Assembly: GCA_946615905.1 (NCBI GenBank)
Contig: CAMOIE010000016.1
Coordinates: 1-64,000, forward strand
Source: an uncultured Treponema sp.
Lineage (GTDB): Bacteria; Spirochaetota; Spirochaetia; Treponematales; Treponemataceae
DNA length: 64,000 nucleotides
Direction of reading: 5' to 3'
Under the pieces are notes generated by a model. The model was given only the letters and a program-made list of their open reading frames with translations, had not been told where the DNA came from and ran no database searches. This document shows positions 16,661-53,960 of the stretch, piece after piece; position 1 is the stretch's first letter; each line of letters begins with the position of its first letter. The position numbers and the translations under genes were made by a program.

Positions 16661-16814
16661 AGAATAATGAAAAACTGGGCGCAACCCGCTTCGCGGGTCG
16701 GCAGTTCCAGGGCTTGCTGACGCGCGGCCTCCTCGGTTTCGACAGGCTCAACCTGCGGTGGCAGCCTCCGGCTCCCTTCCATTGCCTTGCGCTCTCAGTA
16801 ATTTGGGTGGGACT
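16661..16814. repeat. Dispersed repeat inserted between fliH and fliI
   Basis: This 154-bp gap interrupts an otherwise tight operon. It contains a short hairpin AACCCGC-TTC-GCGGGT and GGTTTCGACAGGCTCAACC (16736-16754), the same dispersed phrase found near 2660 and 50274. A reading frame continuing into fliI from 16758 is rejected because the extra residues are encoded by this repeat. Confidence 0.65.
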
Positions 16815-21346: not shown

Positions 21347-21406
21347 AAGATTTTTTTAAGGCGAATTGAAAAGCAAAGAAAGTGTTAGCGCTGGGAAGGG
21401 CGACAG

Positions 21407-21446
21407 TTCGCACAAGAAAGCTGCATGTGCGGCGTTCTTGTGCGAA
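21407..21446. repeat. Perfect 12-bp inverted repeat inside a dispersed repeat
   Basis: TTCGCACAAGAA (21407-21418) and TTCTTGTGCGAA (21435-21446) are exact reverse complements with a 16-bp loop, in the 173-bp gap between nrdG and the preceding operon gene. Flanking sequence, read on the minus strand, contains CGCTATGTCC followed 5 nt later by TCGCTCACGCTCATT, which recurs inside the ABC ATPase gene at 53094-53960. No T run follows, so it is not a standard terminator. Confidence 0.75.
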
Positions 21447-21519
21447 TGAGCGTGAGCGAACCCTGGACATAGCGACCCGGCAAAGGCGGGAAACACCATA
21501 TACAATTGAAAAACGAAAG

Positions 21520-36783: not shown

Positions 36784-36864
36784 AGAGAAAAATGCCCCGG
36801 ACGTAGCGACCCGCAGGGGGCCGACATGGCGTGGCTTTTCTCTCTCGTCGGGGGCGTCCGAAAA
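36784..36864. repeat. Dispersed repeat between the small frame and trpA
   Basis: Contains GGACGTAGCGACCCGC, matching GGACATAGCGACCCGGC at 21465-21481 with one change and one insertion, bounded by loose inverted matches (GGACG with CGTCC; GAGAAAA with TTTTCTC). Probably the same repeat family as at 21407-21490. It might end transcription from both sides. Confidence 0.5.
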
Positions 36865-44263: not shown

Positions 44264-44413
44264 GAAAAATCTTACGCCGTGCGTGTAGGAGCGAAGTTGG
44301 CGGCTTGCCGCCAATGAGGGCTACCGAACTCCGAAAGGCCGGTTGGGGGAGATTTTCTCCGTCCAAGAAAAGAGAAAAATAAATTTTACTTTATTAAAGG
44401 AAAGAAAAATTCT
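44264..44413. repeat. Hairpin-rich dispersed repeat before znuA
   Basis: The 150-bp gap contains a perfect hairpin TTGGCGGC-TT-GCCGCCAA (about 44294-44311) and loose matches between its flanks (AAATCTTAC and GGAGATTTTC). It resembles other GC-rich intergenic blocks in this window in texture. AAAGGAAAG precedes the znuA ATG. No gene seen. Confidence 0.5.
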
Positions 44414-52164: not shown

Positions 52165-53091
52165 ATGAACATGGAAGCGTTTTGTTTGGGCTGCGGGGGC
52201 ATGATGCCTCTTCCCTACCGCCACTTGACTTCGATGCTCCTCCGCCGTGACGGAGATCTTTTTCTCTTTGACGGTGGCGAGGGCACCCAGGTTTCTTTGC
52301 GCCGCCTCAACCTCAAATGGAAGAAAATCAACGCCATATTCGTCTCCCATACCCACGCCGACCATATCACGGGGCTTCCCGGAATCATGATGCTTTCCGC
52401 CCAGGTTGACCGTACGGAGCCTCTTTACATTTTCGGGCCTCCAAAAATCGCCGAATACATCGAGACAAGCCGGCGGGTCCTTGACATGTACATAAACTAT
52501 CCCGTGGTCGTAAAAGAAATCACAGCCCCATGCGTCTGCTACGAGGGTGACGGCTTTTACATCAGGGCCTTTCCCTTGCAGCACACAAAGACCTGCGTGG
52601 GCTACACGCTTGAGGAACTTGACCGCCCAGGAGAATTCAACCCGGAAAAGGCCGAGGAGCTTGGAGTTCCAAAAGGCCCCCTGTGGGGAAAGCTGCAGAA
52701 GGGTGAGGACGTCCAGGCTGCTGACGGAAAAATTATCCATCCGTCAGATGTCATGGGGGCTAAAAGGTCGGGCCGGAAATTCTCGTTTGTCACAGACACA
52801 CAGTACATTCCTTCAATCGCAAGGGAAGTGCAGGGGAGCGACCTTTTGATTTGCGAGGGAATGTTCGCCGATGACTGCGCCGACCAGGCAAAAGAAAAAA
52901 AGCACATGACAGCCCGGCAGGCCGCGACAATCGCCCGTGACGCAAAGGTTTCCCGCATGGCAATGATTCATTACAGCCCCCGCTACACGGACCGCGACCT
53001 TGACGTTCTTCTCAAACAGGCGCAGGAAGTCTACCCGGGTGCAGAACTTTGCCGCGACCGTATGCACTTTGAGATTCCATACGTGGACTGA
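52165..53091 (+). CDS. rnz: Ribonuclease Z
   Basis: A 308-residue metallo-beta-lactamase-fold endonuclease that trims tRNA 3' ends. The metal motif is SHTHADHITGLPG near residues 60-73, with further ligands in LQHTKTCVGY, VTDTQYIP and IHYSPRYTD. The last two also fit the elaC-type enzymes. Relevant to this genome since the tRNA and tmRNA in the window lack an encoded CCA. Confidence 0.93.
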   Translation: MNMEAFCLGCGGMMPLPYRHLTSMLLRRDGDLFLFDGGEGTQVSLRRLNLKWKKINAIFVSHTHADHITGLPGIMMLSAQVDRTEPLYIFGPPKIAEYIETSRRVLDMYINYPVVVKEITAPCVCYEGDGFYIRAFPLQHTKTCVGYTLEELDRPGEFNPEKAEELGVPKGPLWGKLQKGEDVQAADGKIIHPSDVMGAKRSGRKFSFVTDTQYIPSIAREVQGSDLLICEGMFADDCADQAKEKKHMTARQAATIARDAKVSRMAMIHYSPRYTDRDLDVLLKQAQEVYPGAELCRDRMHFEIPYVD

Positions 53092-53093
53092 TT

Positions 53094-53960
53094 ATGAGCC
53101 TTGATTCTGGAGATGAAATTCTGGGCGCTACGGCTAAAGCCGCCGCTATGTCCGCCCTTCGCTCACGCTCATTGACCGCTTCCGCGGCCAACTCCGGGGC
53201 TACCAGCGCTAGCGCATCCGGCATAAAAATCGACCATTTCACAAAAATATACGGCAGGTCCGGACAGACTGCCGTGTCTGATTTTTCTCTGGAATGTCAG
53301 GCAGGGCAAATCACCGGAATAATGGGACCCAACGGGTCCGGAAAGACCACGATTTTAAAGGCCGTCACTGCCAGGCATTTTCCTTCCTCCGGCTCTTTGT
53401 CAGTCAACGGAATCAATCCTTGTGAGAATCCTGAGAGAGTCAGGCAGATTACAGGCTTCGTAGAAGAGCAGGCCTCTTTCCCGTCATTTTACACAGTGAA
53501 GGAATTCCTTTTTGCAAAGGCAGAGCTTTTCGGAGTCAAAAAAAATACTCTTTCTGCGGCCGTAAAAAAAGCCTGCGAAGTCTGCTCATTGGATTCTGAC
53601 GGCATTTTGTCAAAAAAAATCCCGGCCCTCTCAAAAGGCTACAAGACCCGGCTTGCTTTCGCCTCCGCCCTTGTCTACAATCCTCCGGTTTTGGTCTTGG
53701 ACGAGTCTGCCAACGGCCTAGACCCTGAGCAGATTGCAAAAATGAGGTCGCTGATTCTCTCTCTCAAAAAAAATCACACGATTTTGCTTTCAACCCACTT
53801 GATGCAGGAGGCTCATTCTCTCTGCGACAAAATCTGCTTCATCTCACACGGGCAAAAAAAAGCATTCGGAACGGAAGAAGATCTTAAAAAAATCGCCGGA
53901 ACTGACAGTCTTGAGGATGCTTTTTTTAAATTGACCGGCCTAAGGACAGACGAAAAGTGA
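53094..53960 (+). CDS. ABC-2 transporter ATPase (GldA-like) with repeat-derived N-terminus
   Basis: A 288-residue ATPase. Walker A is GPNGSGKTT near residue 80, signature LSKGYKTRLAFASAL, Walker B VLVLDESANGLDP, switch His LLSTHLMQ. The real domain begins at about residue 44 (IKIDHFTKIYG). Residues about 9-42 are Ala/Ser-rich and encoded by DNA matching the intergenic repeat near 21425-21475, so they are an in-frame insertion. No good ribosome site precedes 53094; an inner ATG at 53148 is an alternative. Works with the next two genes. Confidence 0.85.
   Translation: MSLDSGDEILGATAKAAAMSALRSRSLTASAANSGATSASASGIKIDHFTKIYGRSGQTAVSDFSLECQAGQITGIMGPNGSGKTTILKAVTARHFPSSGSLSVNGINPCENPERVRQITGFVEEQASFPSFYTVKEFLFAKAELFGVKKNTLSAAVKKACEVCSLDSDGILSKKIPALSKGYKTRLAFASALVYNPPVLVLDESANGLDPEQIAKMRSLILSLKKNHTILLSTHLMQEAHSLCDKICFISHGQKKAFGTEEDLKKIAGTDSLEDAFFKLTGLRTDEK
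53130..53222. repeat. Dispersed repeat inside the ABC ATPase gene
   Basis: Contains CGCTATGTCC, five bases, TCGCTCACGCTCATT (53144-53173), identical in both blocks to the reverse complement of 21442-21474 between nrdG and its neighbour. Limits are approximate; the block is GC-rich and ends before the codons for IKIDHF. It is in frame and adds about 31-34 residues. Confidence 0.65.

Follow-up and report, generated by a model that had tools for sequence, protein, structure and literature searches.

The window analysed here is a stretch of 64,000 nt, positions 1-64000 of contig 16 (77 kb), in a draft genome of 2.96 Mb and 47 contigs. It encodes an ABC-transporter ATPase of 288 aa, whose Pfam ABC_tran domain lies at residues 62-206 (E 8.9e-23) and is preceded by an N-terminal tail. 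The gene directly upstream, which we take from its conserved sequence to be RNase-Z-like (rnz-like), encodes a metallo-hydrolase and ends 2 nt before the ATG of the ATPase gene. Within the tail lies one of several copies of a repeated element found in the window (Table 1).

Table 1. Genes, element copies and element parts in the window
Feature	Position	Strand	Basis
Upstream RNase-Z-like metallo-hydrolase gene	52165-53091	+	ORF, orthologue loci
ABC-transporter ATPase gene; N-terminal tail, residues 1-43	53094-53960	+	ORF; Pfam ABC_tran
Probable inserted stretch, 129 nt (43 codons), between ATG 53094 and ATA 53226; ends inferred	53097-53225	+	Orthologue starts
Full-length copy in the ATPase gene, in frame	53124-53217	+	R1 82.1 bits, E 4e-19, positions 1-104 of 104
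Helix P1, 5' arm GCGCTA; partner 53210-53215, TAGCGC	53125-53130	+	R1 alignment, sequence
Hairpin P2, CGGCT-AA-AGCCG	53131-53142	+	R1 alignment, sequence
Conserved core A, CGCTATGTCC; in-frame ATG 53148 (residue 19), alternative start	53144-53153	+	Sequence
Helix P3, 5' arm GCCCT; partner 53196-53200, GGGGC	53154-53158	+	R1 alignment
Conserved core B, TTCGCTCACGCTCATT	53158-53173	+	Genome-wide pattern search
Hairpin P4, sequence specific to this copy	53174-53189	+	R1 alignment
Second full-length copy, non-coding gap	21380-21497	-	R1 94.7 bits, E 1.9e-22
Third, more divergent copy	16678-16794	+	R1 36.9 bits, E 2.9e-7
Partial copy, model positions 30-91	44284-44336	-	R1 28.0 bits, E 6.3e-5
Related core GGGTCGCTACGTCC with adjacent hairpin only; probable truncated copy	36799-36812	-	Pattern search

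An earlier note on this DNA had described a repeat shared by the ATPase gene and a non-coding gap, placed in frame at the N-terminus, with the ATPase domain starting only afterwards. Its description agrees with our results. The exact pattern CGCTATGTCC-N5-TCGCTCACGCTCATT occurs at two sites in the window, 53144-53173 (+) and 21445-21474 (-), with 0 matches expected from 100 dinucleotide shuffles, and three times genome-wide. The element covers residues 11-42 of the ORF, and alignments with the best PDB relatives begin at about residue 41. The extent of the repeat had to be revised, as the 30-bp match is exact but the real unit is longer at both sites. A related core on the minus strand, also claimed before, is present two bases away from the interval first given (36797-36811); it was not picked up by the full covariance model R1. 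Genome-wide, the right half-site TTCGCTCACGCTCATT was found 13 times exactly and 49 times at ≤2 mismatches (reversed control, 0), and the left half GGGTCGCTAYGTCC 24 times at ≤1 mismatch (reversed control, 1).

A dispersed element with covarying helices

The shared 30 bp form the core of a dispersed element with five conserved helices, whose full-length matches are mostly ~87-150 bp long. In the alignment of copies, the unit begins with GGGCGNN, a hairpin, CGCTAYGTCC, GCCC or GGGG, and TTCGCTNNCGCTCATT, and continues with a variable hairpin, AACTNC, GGGGC or CCCC, CCAGCGCT and NNCGC. Model R1 (104 positions) was built on 32 aligned copies, among them 21380-21497, and the ATPase copy was left out. 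P3, P4 and two outer P0 pairs came from RNAalifold, which recovered the inner helices unaided from the 32 copies, while P1 was added and P2 placed by hand.

Among the 32 copies, 86.4% of the cells were paired, compared with 63.3% in shuffles, the outer helices in this count being hand-added. The covariation score was 0.506 against 0.162 in shuffles, and in 21 of the 26 pairs both partners had changed. Covariation is best in P3: three of its pairs are C-G in about half of the copies and G-C in about half, and none is broken in the 32. For 85 matches from seven other genomes the score was 0.523 against 0.122 in shuffles, in an alignment fitted to R1 and so leaning to it. P1, seen as a terminal inverted repeat, was paired in 83.7% of cells in the 32 copies and in 88.3% in the 85 matches, values that are biased because copy ends were partly picked by complementarity. 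Ten loci compared with Rfam (E≤1) gave a single hit, which lay away from the element, and a known RNA family was rejected on this basis. In five copies (L005, L007, L008, L020 and L025), the P4 hairpin carries a GTTTCGACAAGCTCAACC-like sequence, an imperfect inverted repeat in its own right, which may represent one repeat nested within another.

In the ATPase copy, the arms of P1, P2 and P4 still pair although their sequences are specific to this copy, and the R1 alignment marks one mispair. That chance or composition made this GC-rich coding DNA resemble an intergenic stretch has a negligible probability, being ruled out by the shuffles and by R1, which was untrained on this copy and matched it at all 104 positions.

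The four window copies were retrieved by an R1 search with filters off. The divergent copy at 16678-16794 overlaps the 5' end of an ORF beginning at 16758 and is a possible further altered gene start. In this genome R1 retrieved 127 matches (E≤0.1), among which the ATPase copy ranks 13th. Matches were found in 32 out of 59 relatives' genomes (E≤0.001), all of the same genus: 32 of 36 genomes of the genus, the window's own counted, and 0 of 23 from other genera. In a wider draw, at least 83 of 241 genomes of the order (E≤1e-4) and at least 18 of 81 genera had matches, both counts being lower bounds because large draws use stricter filters.

The tail compared with homologues

ATPase homologues were detected in 152 of 200 genomes in a search of the genus (E≤1e-40). 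The best matches mostly align from residue 41-45. Some begin earlier, the earliest at residue 14; most of these have stop codons within the match, and those available as loci were inspected. Aligning orthologous ATPases had been proposed as a check on the uniqueness of the tail, and the tail proved to be missing from all 45 same-genus homologues, which start 1-7 codons before the domain (MIELxxFSKSY-like); nine loci from other genera had been dropped (L073, L076, L077, L080, L081, L083, L084, L086 and L087). No R1 match was found in any of the 30 ATPase loci searched. In 35 of the 45 loci an RNase-Z-like gene precedes the ATPase gene on the same strand, with a gap of 2-3 nt in several, as here.

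The orthologues begin with M-I/V-E/K-I/L right after the rnz-like stop. One of them (L189) starts with MIKIENFTKKY; therefore, the ancestral start was probably ATG-ATA-AAA-ATC, and 129 nt now part the ATG from the ATA. Since none of the 45 homologues has the tail, we interpret it as an in-frame insertion of ~129 nt after the start codon, reconstructed from protein comparison because the nearest ATPase homologues are only ~55% identical. The inserted stretch consists of a 5' flank, the element and a 3' flank, and the 27 nt from the ATG to the element are unexplained by the element model. In an AlphaFold2 model based on a thin alignment of 4 sequences, the blocks of residues 1-40 have pLDDT values of 36-50, the first strand appears at residue 44 and the domain blocks reach 73-96, except for the last block (63). 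The tail is predicted to be disordered and the ATPase domain to be complete from residue 44.

Translation could alternatively begin within the element, at the ATG of core A or at TTG 53172 (residue 27), in which case the element would have donated a new start and be translated in part. We consider this rather unlikely: although both codons are in frame, ATG 53094 follows the upstream stop at the spacing seen in several orthologues, and by eye no Shine-Dalgarno-like stretch precedes the internal ATG. There is no canonical start between residues 27 and 61 of the ORF; a product with the whole domain, if begun at a canonical start, therefore contains residues of the element. It is very unlikely that assembly or binning pasted the repeat into the gene. 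The genome is indeed a draft in 47 contigs, but the site is not close to an end of its 77 kb contig, the reading frame is intact before and after the insert and the same kind of insertion occurs in independent genomes.

Element copies inside other genes

The search for the repeat in coding frames across the genome, also proposed earlier as a check, retrieved further cases. In this genome, 102 of the 103 best copies had sequence for the gene check, and 24 weaker matches fell outside the count. Four of the 102 lie inside ORFs that are gene-like by codon score. These encode the ATPase, an OppC-OppD fusion and an MptE-like protein, all three with Pfam domains, and a 465-aa protein without a Pfam match. 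In the OppC-OppD fusion (G000:C38:136-2262), the element is located in the linker (residues 358-394) with Pfam domains on both sides. This fusion is common in the genus, with matches in 62 of 79 genomes (E≤1e-60), many as one ORF; the linker carries the element in four of 29 other loci (G002, G187, G099 and G221), five species in total. Linker length is very variable across the genus (loci L216-L244). In the MptE-like gene the element is antisense (42.2 bits) and coincides with a loop that varies in relatives as well, which makes it a weaker case. The 465-aa protein contains a partial element in frame (G000:C30:6906-6962, locus L016; residues 433-452) with coding-like codon use. Seven other long element-spanning ORFs in this genome, and those of L290, L294, L295 and L296 in other genomes, have no Pfam family and were judged spurious; the rest looked unlikely to be proteins on inspection by eye and were dropped.

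From seven other genomes we considered 84 copies in 80 loci, chosen as high-scoring, one of 85 R1 matches having been left out as it ran off a locus end. Six of the 84 lie in Pfam-supported genes, encoding CarA, a WYL regulator, CoaE (twice), an RluA-like pseudouridine synthase and a LigT-Vsr protein. In CarA the element sits between two domains, with 87 residues between the aligned parts compared with ~51 in the E. coli chain. In the WYL regulator it lies where the WYL match ends, and in the RluA-like protein it precedes the domain. The LigT-Vsr ORF of G115 (L297:1431-2600, minus strand) has 2'-5' RNA ligase-like and Vsr mismatch endonuclease domains, with the element between them. Of 30 CoaE loci, four (G120, G004, G024 and G143), representing four species, have the element at the N-terminus, and these copies sit just behind a nearly abutting upstream gene, presumably polA-like, judging by its C-terminus. 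Four other CoaE loci (L356, L357, L361 and L362, from G113, G072, G119 and G204, four further species) have a different N-terminal tail, rich in Ala, Ser and Pro. It is coded by another repeat-like sequence, GGGGGAAGTCTCCCCC-like and, in three of them, also CTCTGCGGG-like; a second repeat family may thus have entered CoaE at the same end.

The element is read in frames s0 (the ATPase tail), s1, a1 and a2, on both strands, which points to several separate events and to no single favoured peptide. Each copy has 2.52 open frames, compared with 2.49 in dinucleotide shuffles. This equality rules out a coding-optimised element; the element is readable because its GC-rich composition alone yields open frames. 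The earlier note had called the repeat "exapted in frame". The in-frame insertion stands, given the tail missing from 45 of 45 homologues and the recurrence in other genes, while a gain of function, which "exapted" implies, is unsupported. A true exaptation, with the Ala/Ser-rich tail functional in the ATPase, is in our view improbable. An open frame and an intact domain agree with it, but the tail is predicted to be disordered, no homologue examined has it, open frames are as frequent in shuffles and the frames differ between genes.

Possible constraint, probable mobility and known repeat families

The CoaE elements of G004 and G024 are orthologous, as they share common flanks. They differ at 4 of 95 sites (93 of 97 are identical in a slightly wider cut), and all four differences belong to two compensatory pairs, with N-to-Y and N-to-K changes in the peptide. 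The flanks are only 87% (polA-like) and 83% (coaE) identical. Summed over four orthologous pairs, 11 of 422 sites differ in the elements and 111 of 783 in the 100-nt flanks, a fifth candidate pair (L386/L391, 67% alike) having been dropped before the sum. These figures suggest selection on the orthologous elements, which we regard as a lead. Both results would fit a reading in which the element sits at an operon junction as structured RNA or folded DNA, with selection acting on the structure rather than on the peptide and the tail being tolerated. This reading is possible but doubtful: the excess is uneven among the four pairs (in one, the element is about as conserved as its flanks, and the sum is dominated by another whose flanks align poorly), the genes around the element show no preferred orientation, and template-switch mutation between the palindrome arms could yield compensatory changes without selection. 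Still more tentatively, the folded structure may be kept by selection even within genes, a single sequence then acting as structured RNA or DNA while also coding for protein. A non-coding orthologous copy (L384/L349, from G024 and G004) is 97% identical; about 45 nt just downstream are also nearly identical, and the wider flanks are 65-70% alike.

The genes around the 102 copies, with arrowheads giving their directions, were arranged as <E< in 28 cases, >E> in 24, <E> in 20 and >E< in 15; 11 copies had one neighbour and four were inside genes. This lack of bias speaks against a riboswitch-like or cis-regulatory leader. With similarities of typically ~66% between the copies of this genome, recent movement can be shown for few of them. 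The two most similar copies (95%) have unrelated flanks, evidence of movement or duplication. On the 5' side, GGGCG tends to be preceded by WTTY. No target-site duplication was visible in flank profiles or near-identical pairs, and the nine ORFs between close element pairs, all ordinary genes or without a family, included no transposase by Pfam. Y1_Tnp (PF01797) had 0 matches in this genome, the control being found in 5 of 14, and a RAYT-mobilised REP was rejected on this basis. In two narrow tests, the exact core pattern had 0 occurrences in viral_contigs and the copy at 21380-21497 had no match in plasmids, which speaks against a phage or plasmid origin.

Considering the homologues, the covarying structure and the dispersed copies, the tail very probably stems from the in-frame insertion of a complete ~94-bp copy of a structured repeat (palindromic or MITE-like) that is mobile but non-autonomous. 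The element would mostly copy into intergenic DNA. Here it would have inserted just behind the start codon of the ATPase gene, 2 nt 3' of the RNase-Z-like gene. The original start would now read through the insert, because this is a multiple of three with no stop in that frame, and ~43 disordered residues would precede the intact ATPase domain. Copies within genes would survive if in frame and located at an N-terminus (at tight gene junctions), in a linker or in a loop.

It is well supported that a dispersed, foldable repeat has inserted in frame, in a manner comparable to the Rickettsia palindromic elements (RPEs). RPEs are dispersed, stem-loop-forming repeats of ~100-150 bp, found also in frame within conserved protein genes; one tested gene product remains active, and nearly half of the first RPEs lay in genes, according to a review (PMC2229807, PMC10969869). 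The present element resembles them in its length, in its stable palindromic fold and in its in-frame position in conserved genes (ATPase, OppC-OppD, CoaE, CarA, WYL, RluA-like, LigT-Vsr and MptE-like). It differs in belonging to another phylum, provided that Treponema, the genus named in the earlier note, holds, in its five helices, side hairpin and conserved unpaired cores, in the use of four reading frames on both strands, and in the proportion of examined copies in genes, ~4-7% compared with the nearly half reported for the first RPEs.

Other families are similar in part. The enterobacterial repeats RU-1 (ERIC), RU-2 and RU-3 (103-168 bp) are described as fused in frame to other ORFs (PMC2759123), and so likewise combine a small repeat with reading frames; several of these fusions concern short hypothetical ORFs, whereas here mostly conserved Pfam-supported genes are affected. 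REPs share dispersed imperfect hairpins and high copy number, but at 20-40 bp (PMC3733652) they are several times shorter than this element, and the Y1_Tnp of REP/RAYT systems was not found in this genome. Cod-2, from a survey of stem-loop families in 40 genomes, also lies in several coding sequences in different frames; it is described as very small, and the text of that paper does not name Treponema (PMC2267715). The terminal inverted repeats (P1) recall MITEs, with the ends partly picked by complementarity. In the open-access literature searched, we found no paper on this element or on in-frame repeats in Treponema. By our analysis, this appears to be a new family, absent from Rfam, that behaves like RPEs; it is set beside them by description, and no membership is claimed.

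Foldable repeats that invade conserved genes in frame have hitherto been known chiefly from Rickettsia and from scattered enterobacterial cases. The present element adds a second lineage, with several independent events, insert-free homologues and a covarying structure. It allows one to ask how proteins tolerate inserts of 30-40 residues and whether such inserts get used, and what moves and preserves elements of this kind. If the folded structure is indeed kept by selection even in genes, these elements would steadily supply new linkers and tails to bacterial proteins outside Rickettsia.
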